This document shows positions 2,547 to 50,556 of a stretch of DNA of 64,000 nucleotides, piece by piece. The translations under genes were made by a program, and so were the position numbers. Below the pieces are notes generated by a model. It did no database searches, had not been told where the DNA came from, and worked only from the letters and a program-made list of their open reading frames with translations. Location of the stretch: positions 1 through 64,000 of the forward strand of contig JABXII010000016.1 in the NCBI GenBank assembly GCA_013373175.1. The letters are read 5' to 3'. Every line of letters begins with the position of its first letter. Positions within the stretch are counted from its first letter, which is position 1. The DNA is from Campylobacteraceae bacterium (GTDB lineage: Bacteria; Campylobacterota; Campylobacteria; Campylobacterales; Arcobacteraceae).

Positions 2547-3620
2547 ATGAACAATGTAAAAAGATATCCAACAAAAAAGATTTTCGTAGGTGATGTTGCT
2601 ATTGGGGGAGATGCTCCAATATCAGTTCAATCTATGACATATAGTAAGACTTCCGATGTGGAAGCAACCGTAGAACAAATTAGAGCATTGCACTTTGCAG
2701 GGGCAGACATCGTAAGAGTAGCCGTTCCTGATTTAAAAGCAGCAAATGCATTAAAAGCTATTAAAGAACAAACTTCTTTACCACTAGTTGCAGATATTCA
2801 TTTTAACTATAAATTAGCATTAATAGCAGCAGAAGTGGTAGACTGTATCAGACTTAATCCTGGAAATATAGGAGATAAAAAAAGGGTTACAGAGGTTGTA
2901 AAGGCTTGTCAACAAAGAAATCTTCCAATTAGAATTGGAGTAAACTGTGGTTCTTTAGAATCACAATTTGAAGACAAATATGGCCAAACAGCACGTGGTA
3001 TGGTAGAAAGTGCGGACTATAATATTAAGTATTTAGAGGATTTAGGTTTTGATGATATAAAAGTATCATTAAAAGCTAGTGATGTTCAAAGAACAGTTGA
3101 AGCATATAGAATGTTAAGGCCTATGAATAATTATCCTTTCCATTTAGGTGTAACAGAAGCTGGAACACAGTTTCACTCAACAATAAAATCTTCAATTGCA
3201 CTTGGAAGTTTACTTCTTGATGGTATTGGTGATACTTTAAGAGTATCAATGACAGGAGAGCTTGAAAAAGAGATTGAAGTAGGGCGAGCAATACTTAAAG
3301 ATGCAGGACTTGTACAAGAAGGCTTAAATATTATTTCATGTCCAACTTGTGGAAGAATTGAAGCTGATTTAGTAAGTGCAGTTGCTGAAGTTGAAGAGAA
3401 AACAAAGCATATTAAAACACCTTTAAATGTTTCAGTTATGGGATGTGTTGTTAATGCTTTAGGTGAAGCAAAAGCTGCTGATGTTGCAATTGCATATGGA
3501 AAAGGAGTTGGGCTTATCATCAAAAAAGGTGAAACAATAGCAAAACTTCCAACAGACCAATTATTAGATAGATTTTTAAAAGAAGTAGAATTTGAAGCAA
3601 AGAAAGAGGGTAACAATTAG
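2547..3620 (+). CDS. ispG: 4-hydroxy-3-methylbut-2-en-1-yl diphosphate synthase (MEP pathway)
   Basis: The 357-residue protein carries out the penultimate step of non-mevalonate isoprenoid synthesis, converting MEcPP to HMBPP with a [4Fe-4S] cluster. The N-terminal TIM barrel starts [17 protein letters not shown]. The cluster ligands are visible as SCPTCGR (Cys near residues 265 and 268) and [11 protein letters not shown] (Cys near 300). The length matches the compact bacterial form. It overlaps the dnaB start by one base (TAGTG), so the two are probably coupled. No strong Shine-Dalgarno precedes the ATG at 2547. Confidence 0.97.
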
Positions 3621-41260: not shown

Positions 41261-41274
41261 TATGAAAAATCATT
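41261..41274. promoter_or_regulatory. Operator candidate A, upstream of tetR
   Basis: ATGA-AAAA-TCAT (41262-41273) has the same four-base arms and four-base spacer as the hydA sites. It ends 16 bases before a -10-like TATAGT (41291-41296), so a bound protein would cover the -35 region. This suggests autoregulation of the adjacent TetR gene. Confidence 0.55.
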
Positions 41275-41327
41275 CACTATTAATTAGAAATATAGTATTA
41301 TTAAAAAAATAATTCTAAGGATTTATC

Positions 41328-41921
41328 ATATCAACTACAAAAGAGACTAAAAAGAACAATATTATTGAAAATTCATTAAAACTTTTTTCTCAAAAAGGTT
41401 TTTATAATACGACAATTCCTGATATTGCAAGAGCTATGAAAATGAGTGTTGGTAATATGTATAACTACTTTTCTTCAAAAGAAGAATTAGCAAAATATGC
41501 AATTAAGTATTCTACTAATATTCTAGCTAAAGATTTAAGAGAAATTAATCAAATGGAAGCCTCTTCTAGGGATAAAATTTTTTTATTTACAAGAAAATAT
41601 TTAGAAAATGTTCAAAAATCACCAGAAGTAATTGAGTATTTTTTAAGGGTTTATTTATCAAATAGAGAAGTTTTTAACAATGATTGTGAAGGTTTTTTAT
41701 GTGTAAGTGAATTTGTAACTGAAGTAATGATTTTACTTGACGAAGGAGCTGCAAAAGAAGAGTTTAGGCAACAAGACTTTTTCCCGGCTTTTGCAATGAT
41801 TATGGGTGCATTAGGTGGTTTTGCTTTTCTTTCTGGAGAAAAAGTTTTAGAAAAAGATATTTCAACTTATTCTGATGATGTTGCTGAAAATATCTATAGA
41901 GCTTTAAAAAGTGACGATTAA
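41328..41921 (+). CDS. TetR-family transcriptional regulator with apparent ATA start codon
   Basis: Read from 41328 the protein has 197 residues and a complete TetR HTH: KNNIIENSLKLFSQKGFYNT, then TIPDIARAMKMSVGNMYNYF and SSKEELAKYAI. The ligand domain follows. The frame has no ATG, GTG or TTG between its stop at 41316 and the ATG at 41436, which lies inside the HTH and has no ribosome binding site. AAGGA (41317-41321) is six bases before ATA 41328, so this is the position of a start codon. It stands directly before the hydrogenase genes, and matching operator candidates lie before hydA1 and hydA2. I infer a hydrogenase regulator. A sequencing error (ATG to ATA) cannot be excluded. Confidence 0.8.
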   Translation: MSTTKETKKNNIIENSLKLFSQKGFYNTTIPDIARAMKMSVGNMYNYFSSKEELAKYAIKYSTNILAKDLREINQMEASSRDKIFLFTRKYLENVQKSPEVIEYFLRVYLSNREVFNNDCEGFLCVSEFVTEVMILLDEGAAKEEFRQQDFFPAFAMIMGALGGFAFLSGEKVLEKDISTYSDDVAENIYRALKSDD

Positions 41922-41932
41922 TAAAATTAATT

Positions 41933-41968
41933 AAATAGAGATACTTTAAAGAGTTATCTCTATTTTTT
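41933..41968 (+). terminator. Intrinsic terminator between tetR and the cytosolic hydrogenase genes
   Basis: AAATAGAGATA (41933-41943) pairs perfectly with TATCTCTATTT (41955-41965), followed by T residues to 41968. Only 18 bases separate it from the small-subunit ATG, too few for a new promoter, so the hydrogenase genes must be reached by read-through or from a promoter inside tetR. Confidence 0.8.
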
Positions 41969-41986
41969 GAAAGCAGTTTTTTGGTA

Positions 41987-42886
41987 ATGATTAATACAAA
42001 TAAAAAACCAAAAATAGTTTGGCTACAAGCTATAACATGTAATGGCAATACTCATTCACTTTTAAGTGCAAATGCAAATAGGTTAAAACTATTTTTAGAT
42101 AGTTTTGATTTAGTTTATCACCCTTCATTAACTACTGATACTTTACTAGATGACTTACTTAAAGAAGATAAAGAGATTGACTTTTTACTTGTTGAAGGTG
42201 CAATTACTTCAAATAAAGAGTTTTATCAAATATCTGACCAAACTATAAGTGAAGTCTTAAAAAAGCTTGTTTTAAAATCAAAATATTTAATAGCTGTTGG
42301 TTCTTGTGCTTCTTATGGGGGAGTACACAAAAAATTTGAACAAAATAGTGATATTTGGGGTTTAAAAGAGGCTTTAGAAAAAGAAGACACTTCTTCTTTA
42401 TTTCATCCAATAGTTAATCTTACAGGTTGTCCTGTTCATCCTGAGTGGATATTTCAAACTCTATTTTCACTAAAAGAGTATCAACAAATTGCTTTAGATG
42501 AAATGGGAAGACCTAAAGAAATCTATTCTTATTTAGCACACCATGGTTGTACAAGAAATGAATATTTTGAGTGGAAGGTTGAAGCAAAATCTTTTGGACT
42601 AAAAGAAGGGTGTCTTTTTTATGAACAAGGTTGCCGTGGTCCTATGACTCACTCAAATTGCAATAAAATACTTTGGAATGATGTAAACACAAAGACACGA
42701 GCTGGTATGCCATGTATTGGTTGTACAGAGTTTGATTTTCCTAGAAATAATATGCTTGAAACAAAAAAGAATATAGGAATACCTGATGAAGTGCCTTTAG
42801 GTGTTACTAAAAGAGCATATCTGTCTTTAGCTGGTGTTGCAAAGACTTTTAAAATAGATAGATTAAATGAAAAGATTATTAAATGA
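41987..42886 (+). CDS. hupS: [NiFe]-hydrogenase small subunit, cytosolic group 2-like
   Basis: The 299-residue protein has no Tat signal and begins near the WLQ motif (KIVWLQAITCNGNTHSLL), as in group 2 uptake and sensory hydrogenases. Proximal-cluster ligands: Cys18, then Asn21 where a second Cys is usual, Cys in VGSCASYGG and Cys in LTGCPVHP. Distal-cluster ligands: HHGCTRNE and GCLFYEQGCRGP. Medial: SNCNKI and MPCIGCTEFDF. An Asn at that place also occurs in cyanobacterial HupS as far as I recall. The subgroup (2b, 2d or other) is not settled. It overlaps the large-subunit gene by four bases. Confidence 0.9.
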   Translation: MINTNKKPKIVWLQAITCNGNTHSLLSANANRLKLFLDSFDLVYHPSLTTDTLLDDLLKEDKEIDFLLVEGAITSNKEFYQISDQTISEVLKKLVLKSKYLIAVGSCASYGGVHKKFEQNSDIWGLKEALEKEDTSSLFHPIVNLTGCPVHPEWIFQTLFSLKEYQQIALDEMGRPKEIYSYLAHHGCTRNEYFEWKVEAKSFGLKEGCLFYEQGCRGPMTHSNCNKILWNDVNTKTRAGMPCIGCTEFDFPRNNMLETKKNIGIPDEVPLGVTKRAYLSLAGVAKTFKIDRLNEKIIK

Positions 42887-44238
42887 AAACTGTAGATATA
42901 GTAGAAAGAATAGAAGGTGAAGCTAAGCTTGTTTGTCAGTGGGAAAAAGAAAAGATATCAGATGTAAAAATACAGTTTTTAAACTTTAGAGGTTTTGAGT
43001 TCATCTTAAAAGATAAACCTGCTTTAGATGCACTTGTTTACACTCCAAGAATTTGTGGTATTTGCGGACAAGCTCATTTAAAAGCTACAGTAGAATCATT
43101 AGAAAATATTTATAAAAATCATAATGAAAAACTAACTTTAACAAATAAAGCAAAACTACTTAGAGAGATTGGATTAAATATTGAAATTATAGATTCACAT
43201 ATAAAATGGTTTTATATGTTTATTATGCCAGATGTCGTTAAGTTTTCAAATAATAGTTTAGATGAATATTCTGCTTTAAAAGGAAAAAAATGGCTAGAAG
43301 CTTCAAATATTGCAAGTGAAACTATTAAATCCTTAGCCATTATTGGAGGGCAGTGGCCACATACTTCTTATATGATTCCAGGTGGAGTAGTTTCAGACCC
43401 TACCTTATTAGATTTAGCAACAATGCAAAACTATATGGACCAAGCAATTAGATTTTATGAAAATAGTTTAGTAGGCAATGATTTAGATACTTATCTTAAC
43501 TTTAATAAAAGTGAAGACTTATATAAAGTAAAAGGGGATTTAAAAGATTTTATAACAATTTCTTTTGAAAATGAATTTGAAAAAATTGGAAAATCATATG
43601 ATAGACATTTGGTATTAGGAGATTCTCTTTCATTTGAAAAAGGAAAGATAAGCAAAAAATTAACTAAAAATATTGATTATGAAAATATAGAAGAATTTAC
43701 GATGAATAGTTTTGATATTGATAAATCAAAAGTATCAAAGGAAGCATATACTTGGTCAAAAACTGCACTGTATGCAAATAACTTTTATGAAACAGGACCT
43801 CTTTCAAGAGCAGTTGTACAAGATAGAAGTTTTGTAAGTGATATTCATAAACATTATAGTGACTCAATGTTCACAAGAGTATTGGCAAGAATGGATGAAT
43901 TAGGCTTCTTACTTTTTAAAACAAAAGAGTTAATAAAACAAATTGATATAAATGAAGAGTCTTTTATAAAACCACAAGTTTCCCTTAAAGATTTTAGATA
44001 TGGAATTGGCCAAGCTTCTGTGGAGGCTTGCAGAGGTTCTTTGTATCATGATGTTGAAATTGAAAATGGTATTATTAGAAAATATGATGTTATAACACCT
44101 ACTGTATGGAATTTAGGACCTGGGATTGATAATAAACTTTCAATTTCACAAAAAGCAATAGTAGGAACAGACTCTTTAGAAAAAGCAAAATTGATTCTAA
44201 GAAGTTTTGATGTTTGTTCTGTTTGTACAACCCACTAA
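42883..44238 (+). CDS. hupL: [NiFe]-hydrogenase large subunit, cytosolic group 2-like, without C-terminal extension
   Basis: The 451-residue protein holds the nickel-iron site. The first pair of ligands is in RICGICGQAHLKA near residue 57, the second in SFDVCSVCTTH at the very end. The motif reads D-V-C where D-P-C is usual. The chain stops at the His, so there is no peptide for a maturation endopeptidase to remove; HoxC/HupV-type sensor subunits share this trait, and so may some other group 2 enzymes. No HupT/HoxJ-like kinase is encoded nearby. A sensory or cytosolic uptake role are both possible. Confidence 0.9.
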   Translation: MKTVDIVERIEGEAKLVCQWEKEKISDVKIQFLNFRGFEFILKDKPALDALVYTPRICGICGQAHLKATVESLENIYKNHNEKLTLTNKAKLLREIGLNIEIIDSHIKWFYMFIMPDVVKFSNNSLDEYSALKGKKWLEASNIASETIKSLAIIGGQWPHTSYMIPGGVVSDPTLLDLATMQNYMDQAIRFYENSLVGNDLDTYLNFNKSEDLYKVKGDLKDFITISFENEFEKIGKSYDRHLVLGDSLSFEKGKISKKLTKNIDYENIEEFTMNSFDIDKSKVSKEAYTWSKTALYANNFYETGPLSRAVVQDRSFVSDIHKHYSDSMFTRVLARMDELGFLLFKTKELIKQIDINEESFIKPQVSLKDFRYGIGQASVEACRGSLYHDVEIENGIIRKYDVITPTVWNLGPGIDNKLSISQKAIVGTDSLEKAKLILRSFDVCSVCTTH

Positions 44239-44339: not shown

Positions 44340-44355
44340 AAATGAACGTTCATTT
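44340..44355. promoter_or_regulatory. Operator candidate B, at the hydA1 promoter
   Basis: AAATGAACGTTCATTT is a perfect 16-base palindrome. It ends nine bases before the -10 TATACT (44365-44370), so it overlaps the -35 region. The core ATGA-N4-TCAT is shared with sites A, C, D and E. Confidence 0.75.
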
Positions 44356-44378: not shown

Positions 44379-44449
44379 CATTTTAACAAAAAATGTCATT
44401 TTTGATAATTTTAAATTAAGTAATAAATAGTTAATTTTACAATGATAAT

Positions 44450-44465
44450 AAATGAATATTCATTT
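44450..44465. promoter_or_regulatory. Operator candidate C, in the hydA1 leader
   Basis: AAATGAATATTCATTT is a perfect 16-base palindrome. Its centre is 110 bases after that of site B and its end is 21 bases before the hydA1 start codon, nearly the same distance as site E before hydA2. A protein here could act as a transcription roadblock. Confidence 0.7.
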
Positions 44466-44486
44466 AAAAGCTTAAAGGAGAAGGGG

Positions 44487-45725
44487 ATGATTGATTCTCA
44501 AGAGATGGTAAAAAAAGTTTTTACCCAGAATTCCGCTAGAATTGACACGAATAAAGGTGATGCTTATTATAATTCGCTTTTTGAAAAAGCAAAAAGTAGA
44601 TTAGCTGCATTAAGAAAGCAACCTGCACTTAAAGATATCGATTTAATGGAGGTTGTAGAAAGTGAAGGTGTAAATAGAAGAGACTTTATGAAGTGGGCAA
44701 GTGCAACAACTGCAACACTTATGTTACCTCCTATGTTTACTCCTTTAGTTGCTGAAGCAACAGAACTTATGAATAGAGTTCCTGTTGTTTGGATTGAGTT
44801 ACAAGACTGTGCTGGTAACTCAGAAGCTATTTTAAGGTCAGCTACTCCAACTGTAGATGATTTACTTTTTGATGTACTATCTTTAGAGTATCATCATACA
44901 TTACAAGCTGCTTCAGGTCATCAAGCTGAACATCAGTTAGAAGATGCAATTCATACTTTTAAAGGGAAATATTTACTATTTGTTGAAGGTGCAATTCCAA
45001 AAGCAATGAATGGACAATATGGAACAATTGGTCCTGGTGGTGAAACATTTGAAGATAATCTTAAAAGATTATCAAAAGATGCTGCTGCTGTAGTTGCTGT
45101 TGGTACATGTGCTACATTTGGTGGTATTCCAGCTGCTGCTCCAAATCCAACAGGTGCCGTTGGTGTTATGGATATTGTAAAAGGTAAGCCAATTATTAAT
45201 ATCCCTGCCTGTCCAGCAAACCCAGCTAATATGGTTGGTGTAGTTTTACATTATGTATTAACAGGTCAAATTCCTGAGTTAGACTCATTATTAAGACCTA
45301 AATTTGCATTTGGGTATAGAATTCATGATAACTGTGAAAGAAGAGCACACTTTGATGCAGGTGAGTATGTAGAAGAGTGGGGTGATGATGGAGCTAAAAA
45401 TAACTGGTGTCTATACAAAATGGGTTGTAAAGGACCAATGACATTTAACAATTGTTCTATTATTAGATATAACGAAGGTGCAAACTGGCCTATTGGTGTT
45501 GGTCGTGGTTGTATTGGTTGTTCTGAACCAGATTTCTGGGATAAATATGCATATGAAAGACCAATGGCAGATGCAAATATTAAAGCTCCTACTGGTGGAG
45601 TAGAAAAAACTGTAGATGAGTTCGGTCTAGGGCTATTAACAGCTACATCAATTGGTATTGGTGTACATGCCGTAGCAAGTGCAGTTGCAGGAAAAAGAAC
45701 AGTTCATAGTGAAGATGAGGAATAA
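44487..45725 (+). CDS. hydA1: [NiFe]-hydrogenase small subunit HydA, variant proximal cluster (module 1)
   Basis: The 412-residue precursor has a Tat signal (NRRDFMKWASATTATLMLPP near residue 63) behind an unusually long leader, and a C-terminal membrane helix (about 385-405). Proximal ligands: Cys108 then Asn111 in ELQDCAGNSEAILR, where CxxC is expected, Cys in VGTCATFGG and in NIPACPANP. Distal: HDNCERR and WCLYKMGCKGP. Medial: FNNCSIIR and RGCIGCSEPDFWD. Start ATG 44487 has AAAGGAG in front; the longer reading from 44442 would put operator C inside the gene. It should be exported with HydB1 and oxidise H2 at the periplasmic face. Confidence 0.93.
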   Translation: MIDSQEMVKKVFTQNSARIDTNKGDAYYNSLFEKAKSRLAALRKQPALKDIDLMEVVESEGVNRRDFMKWASATTATLMLPPMFTPLVAEATELMNRVPVVWIELQDCAGNSEAILRSATPTVDDLLFDVLSLEYHHTLQAASGHQAEHQLEDAIHTFKGKYLLFVEGAIPKAMNGQYGTIGPGGETFEDNLKRLSKDAAAVVAVGTCATFGGIPAAAPNPTGAVGVMDIVKGKPIINIPACPANPANMVGVVLHYVLTGQIPELDSLLRPKFAFGYRIHDNCERRAHFDAGEYVEEWGDDGAKNNWCLYKMGCKGPMTFNNCSIIRYNEGANWPIGVGRGCIGCSEPDFWDKYAYERPMADANIKAPTGGVEKTVDEFGLGLLTATSIGIGVHAVASAVAGKRTVHSEDEE

Positions 45726-45728
45726 CAA

Positions 45729-47465
45729 ATGAGTAAACACGTAGTAATAGATCCAATAACAAGAATTGAAGGACATCTTAGAATTGAAGCTGTAATTGAT
45801 GATAATAATGTTATTCAAGAAGCTTATAGTTCATCAACGATGTTCAGAGGTATTGAAGAAATTCTAAAAGGTAGAGACCCAAGAGACTGTGGTCTTTTAG
45901 CTATGAGAATTTGTGGTGTATGTACTGGAACTCACTATCAAAGAAGTATTGAAGCTGTTGAGCATGCGTTTAATGTAACTATTCCAAAAAATGCAAGAAT
46001 AGTTAGAAATCTTATGCAAGGTGGATTATATATTCATGACCATATTGTTCACTTCTATCACTTACATGCTTTAGACTGGGTAGATATTACAAAAGCCTTA
46101 GAAGCAGATCCAAAGAAAACTGTAGAAGAAGCACAAAAATGGGCTAAACTTTCAGGTCAAAGAGCTTGGAATGCAAGTGAAGATAACTATGCAGCAGTTC
46201 AAGAAAGAGTTACTAAGTATGTAAAACAAGGAAGACTTGGTATTTTTGGAAATGCATACTGGGGAAGTAAAGCTTATAAATTAACTCCTGAGCAAAACTT
46301 AATTGGTCTTTCTCACTATTTAGATGCTTTAGACTTACAAAGAGAAGTAGCAAAAGCACAAGCAATTTTTGGTGGTAAAAACCCACACCCACAATCAATT
46401 GTAGTTGGTGGAGTAACTTGTGTTCAAGATATCAAAAACCCAGTAAGAGTTGCTGAGTTTAAAGATATTATTCAAAAAGCTCTTAAGTTTGCAAAAGAAG
46501 CATATTTACCAGATGTTTATATGGCTGGAACAATGTATGCAGATGAGGCACTTGAAGGTGTTGGTGCTGGTATTGGTAACTTTATGTCTTATGGTGATTT
46601 TAACTTAGATGATTTACCGTTTTATAAGTCATCAAAGCTATTCCCATCTGGTATTGTTATGAATAAAGACTTATCAAAAGTATATGACTTAGACCAAACT
46701 AAAATTACAGAAGATGTAACTCATGCTTGGTATGAGGGAACTACAAATAAACACCCATATGATGGTGTGACTGACCCTAAATATACTGGATTTAGAGAGA
46801 AAAAAGATGGTATCGCTTATTTAGATACTGACAATAAATATTCTTGGATTAAGTCACCATTATATGATGATGAAAGAATGGAAGTTGGTCCATTAGCAAG
46901 AATGGTTGTAGGAGTGGCACGTGGTGATAAAAAAATCACTGAGCATGTAACTAAATTCTTAAAAAATGGAAATCTTCCAACAAAAGTTCTTTTCTCAACA
47001 GTAGGAAGAACAGCAGCACGTGCTATTGAAACTGAGCTAATGTGTGAAGAAGTTATCAAATGGTGTGATGAGTTAGCAGTAAATGTTGCAAGTGGTGATT
47101 TATCTACTTGGACTGAATTTGATTTTGATAAAGTAGCAAAAGATGCTCAAGGATTTGGTATGGCTGAAGCACCAAGAGGTAGTTTAGGTCACTGGGTTAA
47201 AATCAAAGATGGAAAAGTAGTAAATTATCAAGCAGTTGTTCCTTCAACTTGGAATGCTGCACCAAAAGATTATAAAGGAAGATTAGGAGCATATGAAGCT
47301 TCACTAGTTGGAACTAAAGTTGTTAATCCTGATGAGCCTTTAGAAATTATTAGAACAGTACATAGTTTTGACCCTTGTATCGCTTGTGCAGTTCATATTG
47401 TAGATACAAATGGAAAAGAATTGGCAGTTTATAAAGTAGATCCTGTAGGAGGATGCCGTGCCTAA
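45729..47465 (+). CDS. hydB1: [NiFe]-hydrogenase large subunit HydB (module 1)
   Basis: The 578-residue subunit carries the nickel-iron centre. L1 is RICGVCTGTHYQRSIEAVE (near residue 60) and L2 is SFDPCIACAVH, followed by a 23-residue C-terminal peptide (IVDTNGKELAVYKVDP and on) that a HydD-type endopeptidase would remove after His. The protein opens VIDPITRIEGHLRIE, as in periplasmic group 1 uptake enzymes. It starts four bases after hydA1 and its 3' end overlaps hydC1 by eight bases. Confidence 0.97.
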   Translation: MSKHVVIDPITRIEGHLRIEAVIDDNNVIQEAYSSSTMFRGIEEILKGRDPRDCGLLAMRICGVCTGTHYQRSIEAVEHAFNVTIPKNARIVRNLMQGGLYIHDHIVHFYHLHALDWVDITKALEADPKKTVEEAQKWAKLSGQRAWNASEDNYAAVQERVTKYVKQGRLGIFGNAYWGSKAYKLTPEQNLIGLSHYLDALDLQREVAKAQAIFGGKNPHPQSIVVGGVTCVQDIKNPVRVAEFKDIIQKALKFAKEAYLPDVYMAGTMYADEALEGVGAGIGNFMSYGDFNLDDLPFYKSSKLFPSGIVMNKDLSKVYDLDQTKITEDVTHAWYEGTTNKHPYDGVTDPKYTGFREKKDGIAYLDTDNKYSWIKSPLYDDERMEVGPLARMVVGVARGDKKITEHVTKFLKNGNLPTKVLFSTVGRTAARAIETELMCEEVIKWCDELAVNVASGDLSTWTEFDFDKVAKDAQGFGMAEAPRGSLGHWVKIKDGKVVNYQAVVPSTWNAAPKDYKGRLGAYEASLVGTKVVNPDEPLEIIRTVHSFDPCIACAVHIVDTNGKELAVYKVDPVGGCRA

Positions 47466-50542: not shown

Positions 50543-50556
50543 AATGAATATTCATT
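50543..50556. promoter_or_regulatory. Operator candidate E, in the hydA2 leader
   Basis: AATGAATATTCATT is a perfect palindrome with the same core as site C. It ends 20 bases before the preferred hydA2 start codon, the same geometry as site C at hydA1. Confidence 0.7.

Follow-up and report, generated by a model that had tools for sequence, protein, structure and literature searches.

In the window, by which we mean the whole stretch of 64,000 nucleotides that was analysed, a TetR-family regulator gene precedes a set of [NiFe]-hydrogenase genes, and its reading frame offers no usual start codon where the protein should begin. We were interested which codon starts this gene, and whether the answer is peculiar to it. 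In the following, ATG, GTG and TTG are called canonical starts, and AUH stands for AUA, AUU or AUC.

The reading frame at position 41,328

The features at the head of the gene are:

41317 to 41321, plus strand: Shine-Dalgarno (SD) motif AAGGA, read in the sequence and present in 25 of 25 AUH orthologues
41328 to 41330, plus strand: ATA, putative start codon of the TetR-family gene, with no canonical start upstream and ATA or ATT in orthologues
41328 to 41921, plus strand: predicted coding sequence of the TetR-family regulator, 197 amino acids plus stop (Pfam TetR_N, AlphaFold2 model, orthologues)

Direct reading of the sequence gave the in-frame order GGA TTT ATC ATA TCA ACT ACA after the stop codon TAA at 41316-41318. 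The original prediction, which had proposed ATA 41328 as the start, was right in its local description: no ATG, GTG or TTG occurs in the TetR frame from that stop to ATG 41436 (codon 37, the first canonical codon), and AAGGA ends six bases (41322-41327) ahead of the ATA. A second in-frame AUH codon, ATC 41325, lies merely 3 nt past AAGGA. Pfam TetR_N matched residues 12-56 of the ATA-started product with 54 bits (cut-off 24), and an AlphaFold2 model built from 15 orthologues (mean pLDDT 84.1) places helices at residues 4-23, 30-36 and 41-47. When the product was started at 41436, the Pfam match was gone and the first two of these modelled helices (4-23 and 30-36) were lost, as expected from the earlier claim that such a start costs most of the helix-turn-helix.

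Translation from an internal ATG, at 41436 or later, would yield a protein without a DNA-binding domain, either as the sole product or as a second isoform. The invariance of M37, M39 and M44 in the orthologue alignment speaks for such a product, but TetR_N is lost with it, no well-spaced SD was found in the sequence ahead of 41436, and the upstream codons are conserved to codon 2. In the 39 codons of open frame 5′ of 41436, the differences from the sister species genome G015 fall on codon positions 1, 2 and 3 in the numbers 1, 2 and 5, so that by this comparison the stretch evolves like coding sequence, and we regard an internal start as very improbable.

An RNA structure hiding the ATA was not indicated, the fold of 41270-41400 being no better than shuffles (z +0.73). 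Re-initiation after an upstream ORF was also considered, as ATG 41262 opens a 16-codon ORF that ends 15 nt 5′ of the ATA; this candidate was dropped because the ORF is seen in L006, altered in L019 and absent or unlike in the remaining relatives, and because it overlaps the presumed operator and -35 region.

The regulator start in related genomes

The regulator is present as a single copy in its own genome, where four further matches are weak paralogues, and matches at E<=1e-40 were found in 67 of 104 Arcobacteraceae genomes. Removal of identical copies left 111 distinct loci with sufficient upstream sequence, 51 of them at an identity of at least 70%. These 51 close orthologues start with ATT (19), ATA (6), TTG (17), ATG (5) or GTG (4), and the 25 AUH loci are free of canonical codons from the upstream stop to codon 15. 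The comparison of this codon among relatives, which had been suggested as a check, thus found ATA or ATT behind AAGGA at a spacing of 6 nt in 24 of the 25 and of 7 nt in one, and the SD-to-AUH spacing is also the commonest spacing from SD to TTG, GTG or ATG in the canonical-start orthologues. Codon 2 encodes Ser (TCT, TCA or TCG) in 24 of the 25, while codon -1 varies freely. In 14 of them TAA lies at codon -2, so that little other choice of start is left there. In L132, the ATT lies one codon further downstream, with the spacing to AAGGA still 6. All 17 distinct sequences from Aliarcobacter (g11) are AUH-started, and single-contig genomes and named isolates are represented, among them Poseidonibacter ostreae (L040) and Arcobacter caeni (L049). 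The features of a conserved AUH start were therefore found in the regulator, namely the absence of a canonical codon for the full-length protein, an SD at ordinary spacing and retention across species. From this comparison, with the identical ATA in G015, the full-length N-terminus translated from ATA 41328 is strongly supported as the true one.

The possibility of an ATG that mutated in this genome alone or was miscalled, which had been left open before, is already refuted by the relatives, since the same codon stands in the sister species and ATA or ATT in 25 of the 51 orthologues from independent assemblies and isolates, even though ATA is one base from ATG and TTG, GTG or ATG occupies the equivalent place in the other 26.

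In a regulator tree, from which the first six residues were omitted and the broken frame of L052 was left out, the window and G015 fall within a Halarcobacter group of TTG, GTG and ATG sequences, and the remaining AUH sequences fall within a second group together with Aliarcobacter and Poseidonibacter. The start state has thus changed at least twice, through mutation or recombination. A canonical start was assigned at 59 of the 60 loci of lower identity, and in the one left uncalled a TTG is present. A weak start is hence not universal, as 26 of the 51 close orthologues are canonical (5 with ATG). In L052 (Malaciobacter halophilus, 2985-3569) an in-frame TAA follows after about 20 codons, and the regulator may be broken in that assembly. 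Three contigs with the Campylobacterota operon carry the labels Sulfurihydrogenibium (L058), Helicobacter pylori (L065) and Thermoplasmata archaeon (L105); these are probably mislabelled or contaminated assemblies.

The hydrogenase genes behind the regulator

The genes and elements adjoining the regulator are:

41262 to 41274, plus strand: candidate operator half-palindrome ATGAAAAATCATT, a lead only, with one mismatch to ATGAANNTTCATT
41933 to 41966, plus strand: A+T-rich hairpin, terminator-like but weak (fold z -1.96 in the window)
41981 to 42886, plus strand: [NiFe]-hydrogenase small-subunit-like gene without TAT signal (Pfam Oxidored_q6, NiFe_hyd_SSU_C)
42883 to 44238, plus strand: [NiFe]-hydrogenase large-subunit-like gene (Pfam NiFeSe_Hases)
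44442 to 45725, plus strand: hydA, exported [NiFe]-hydrogenase small subunit (TIGR00391 with 454 bits, cut-off 179.5; Pfam)
45729 to 47465, plus strand: hydB, [NiFe]-hydrogenase large subunit (Pfam NiFeSe_Hases, 717 bits)

The regulator resembles the TetR/AcrR family in its TetR_N domain and its all-helical modelled fold. It differs in that none of the curated NCBIfam equivalogs matched at its cut-off, and in its link to hydrogenase genes: a small-subunit-like homologue adjoins it in 107 of the 110 loci that have 300 nt or more of downstream sequence (exceptions L073, L112 and L114). The large-subunit-like product of 42883-44238, which we take to be HupUV-like, ends in ...CSVCTTH without a C-terminal extension; in H2-sensing hydrogenases the large subunit stops at the last cysteine-histidine motif and has no extension. 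In the available text of literature on Campylobacterota respiration and on an Arcobacter genome, hydrogenases are named and no TetR-type hydrogenase regulator is mentioned.

In 47 of 50 close loci (window excluded), the small-subunit gene begins before the regulator gene has ended, which may couple the translation of the two. Instead of an overlap, the window, L006 and L007 have a spacer with a hairpin, whose fold z is -3.56 in L006 and -2.52 in L007; in the window, the terminator scan did not list it. Weak translation of the regulator at the head of the operon would keep it below the abundant enzyme, and perhaps a coupled small subunit likewise.

At the place of the half-palindrome, some relatives (e.g. 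L008, L009 and L012) have the full palindrome ATGAATATTCAT 5′ of the regulator. Exact copies of ATGAANNTTCATT occur in the window at 44342-44354 (5′ of hydA), 44452-44464 (hydA start region) and 50544-50556 (start of a second hydA-like gene), the last two within coding sequence. As an operator, the motif is no more than a candidate: in 228 kb there are 7 copies of ATGAANNTTCAT, of which three are at hydrogenase genes, and two of these three lie in coding starts and may reflect protein constraint.

AUH starts across the family and their initiation

To regard the ATA as one repressor's peculiarity, as the original prediction did, proved too narrow, since ftsK, tatD, uvrB and a permease gene start alike across the Arcobacteraceae. 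A codon-position comparison of 208 orthologous ORFs of contig C34 of the own genome (G000) with G015 gave two convincing AUH candidates, this regulator and a 282-aa protein at C34:211766, which starts with ATC in G000 and with ATT in G009 and G015, all three Halarcobacter genomes, whereas relatives further away use GTG or ATG. The latter, which lies outside the window, is an uncharacterised membrane-like protein with a G-rich leader (L206, L207). Codon usage, scanned over about 1.2 Mb (1039 predicted genes), pointed to ftsK, uvrB and genes for a TatD-type DNase, an AEC-type permease and an amidase-like protein, all named from their motifs. The extent of alignment to G015 by itself was uninformative as a background, since species so closely related also share their upstream DNA. 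MltG-like matches of the codon-usage scan were rejected on reading, as a normal ATG follows, and a histogram of the codons at 5 to 7 nt past the SD gave few additional AUH cases, several of them an ATT directly before ATG. The amidase-like gene has an ATT at AAGGA+8 and another ORF an ATT at AAGGA+6 (G015 C8:118604, minus strand; G000 C3:152465 region).

Start codons were read for four of these genes in the best 30 of 60, 59, 49 and 59 matching genomes (ftsK, tatD, AEC-type permease and uvrB, respectively; 61 searched per gene). Under a strict rule, no canonical codon was allowed from the upstream stop through codon 10:

ftsK: ATA 24, ATT 3, ATC 3; AUH in 30 of 30, 27 under the strict rule
tatD: ATA 24, ATT 5, ATG 1; AUH in 29 of 30, 26 under the strict rule
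AEC-type permease: ATC 18, ATA 8, ATT 2, ATG 2; AUH in 28 of 30, 26 under the strict rule
uvrB: ATC 16, ATA 5, ATG 8, GTG 1; AUH in 21 of 30, 20 under the strict rule

The strict total of 99 in 120 is an ascertained rate and not one for a sample of all genes, as the four genes were chosen for a missing canonical start in G000 or G015. Nine of the 108 AUH calls have a canonical codon without SD, either at codon 9 or further upstream in the same frame as the AUH codon, and could start there instead. Third-base conservation at the start exceeds that of interior Ile codons in part; for the AEC-type permease, five of nine interior columns were as low or lower. AUH starts appear to make up about 1% of the genes in Arcobacteraceae, and the genome background comprised ATG 161, TTG 22 and GTG 8 of 191 starts, by a start rule that favours ATG.

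The restriction to the family was checked for uvrB. Outside Arcobacteraceae, in the same order, it has a canonical start at or near the equivalent codon in 37 of the 37 genomes matched (39 searched), as illustrated by ATC GCA AAG TTT in L280 versus ATG GCG AAA TTT in L384 from another family. Within Arcobacteraceae, an SD precedes all 21 AUH starts of uvrB and none of its 8 ATG starts, and in L264, L265, L266, L270 and L275 a TATAAT lies 5-7 nt 5′ of the ATG, so that the message is apparently leaderless in these five. Leaderless messages require AUG, and SD with AUH and leaderless AUG may therefore both serve weak initiation in uvrB.

With regard to the initiation machinery, the anticodon arm of the initiator tRNA (GGGCTCATAACCC, normal CAU anticodon) is standard, with 4 matching sites in the own genome. 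infC starts with TTG in 19 of 19 Arcobacteraceae including the own genome (30 loci read; e.g. L144). A non-canonical infC start, as in IF3 regulation of the infC or sigR type, was thus not found, nor was an AUU-IF3 loop like that of E. coli. Column 78 of the IF3 alignment is V in 19 of 19 Arcobacteraceae and E or D in 11 of 11 others, a difference that is a correlation only; E. coli IF3 presumably has Q there.

These observations bear on the question whether AUH starts are real but merely tolerated, through relaxed start-codon fidelity from an altered IF3 or abundant initiator tRNA and with no selection for low expression. The family-specific V in IF3 is compatible with this, as are the 2-4 matches of the initiator anticodon arm in most Halarcobacter genomes versus about one in most other families (G000-G024, G061-G076). 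Relaxed fidelity is nevertheless unlikely, though it deserves the most weight among the alternatives, as only about one gene in a hundred is affected, TTG and GTG usage is ordinary, the same genes stay AUH across genera, and the AUH of uvrB and ftsK is always accompanied by an SD. A special initiator tRNA or modified CAU anticodon might read AUH as well as AUG, giving full-strength starts as in mitochondria. The use of three different AUH codons would suit this, but ATG still predominates and the anticodon arm is standard at the DNA level, where a modification is invisible, and we consider it improbable.

We therefore favour selected weak initiation, in which the SD AAGGA would put ATA 41328 into the ribosomal P site, the initiator tRNA with its CAU anticodon would read AUA with a third-base mismatch, and weak initiation would keep the regulator scarce. 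The family appears to retain ftsK, tatD, uvrB, the AEC-type permease and the regulator on AUH with well-placed SDs, and ATA 41328 is probably both the start of the regulator and one case of a family-wide AUH set selected for low, probably IF3-sensitive translation; that initiation occurs at AUH codons, is weak and involves IF3 is what we infer. AUG starts are in general under purifying selection (PMC5622118), so that the persistence of AUH over long times needs an explanation, of which low output is the simplest. A broader reading is slightly favoured over its negation: an "AUH regulon" of about 1% of genes with gene-specific AUA, AUC or AUU held across genera, whose output would follow the availability of IF3 or initiator tRNA, and in which uvrB without an SD would turn to leaderless AUG.

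Single-gene precedents exist in infC, pcnB, ccpN and sigR. In the available text of PMC13009471, ccpN (AUA; a metabolic repressor) and cvfC1 (AUU) of Staphylococcus aureus have conserved starts with strong SDs, and reporter output was about 10% of that from AUG in poor medium, rising for ccpN to as much as 30% in rich medium. By analogy, the value in poor medium fits the idea of a low regulator level and makes it plausible that the AUA start keeps it low. The conserved AUA or AUU with a strong SD is common to both cases, whereas S. aureus belongs to another phylum and has extended SDs and few such genes, and in the Arcobacteraceae the set extends over the family and comprises ftsK, uvrB and tatD among others. 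In Streptomyces, sigR has a GTC start with a good RBS, which is IF3-repressed, conserved in 32 of 34 species and was misplaced by annotation, as far as the text of PMC5472188 was available. It is likewise a regulator gene with a conserved non-canonical start and a good RBS, but differs in being a single gene with GTC instead of AUH, and in that a role of IF3 has been shown for it and would be inferred in Arcobacteraceae. An AUU start limits translation of infC and pcnB in E. coli (as cited in the available parts of PMC13009471 and PMC5472188), in contrast to the TTG of infC in Arcobacteraceae. In the literature searched, with subscription papers mostly outside its reach, no report was found of a family-wide conserved AUH set or of AUH starts in Arcobacter. 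Starts in the A. butzleri genome were curated manually, and the terms ATA and AUA are absent from the main text as available (PMC2147049); a C. jejuni pipeline for translation initiation sites permits ATG, GTG and TTG alone, according to its accessible text (PMC11955535). As start callers are usually restricted to these three codons, AUH genes are likely truncated or displaced in annotation, and annotation from a canonical start would strip the present regulator of its entire DNA-binding domain.

Any cultured Arcobacteraceae species should accordingly show FtsK, UvrB and TatD with N-terminal peptides that correspond to the AUH starts. Control of protein levels by IF3 and initiator tRNA has until now been studied on single genes, and AUH on housekeeping genes of one family offers a natural test of it. 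The single unusual start thus becomes one instance of a trait conserved in the family, which, as judged from sequence comparison, points to a common means of holding some proteins at low levels.
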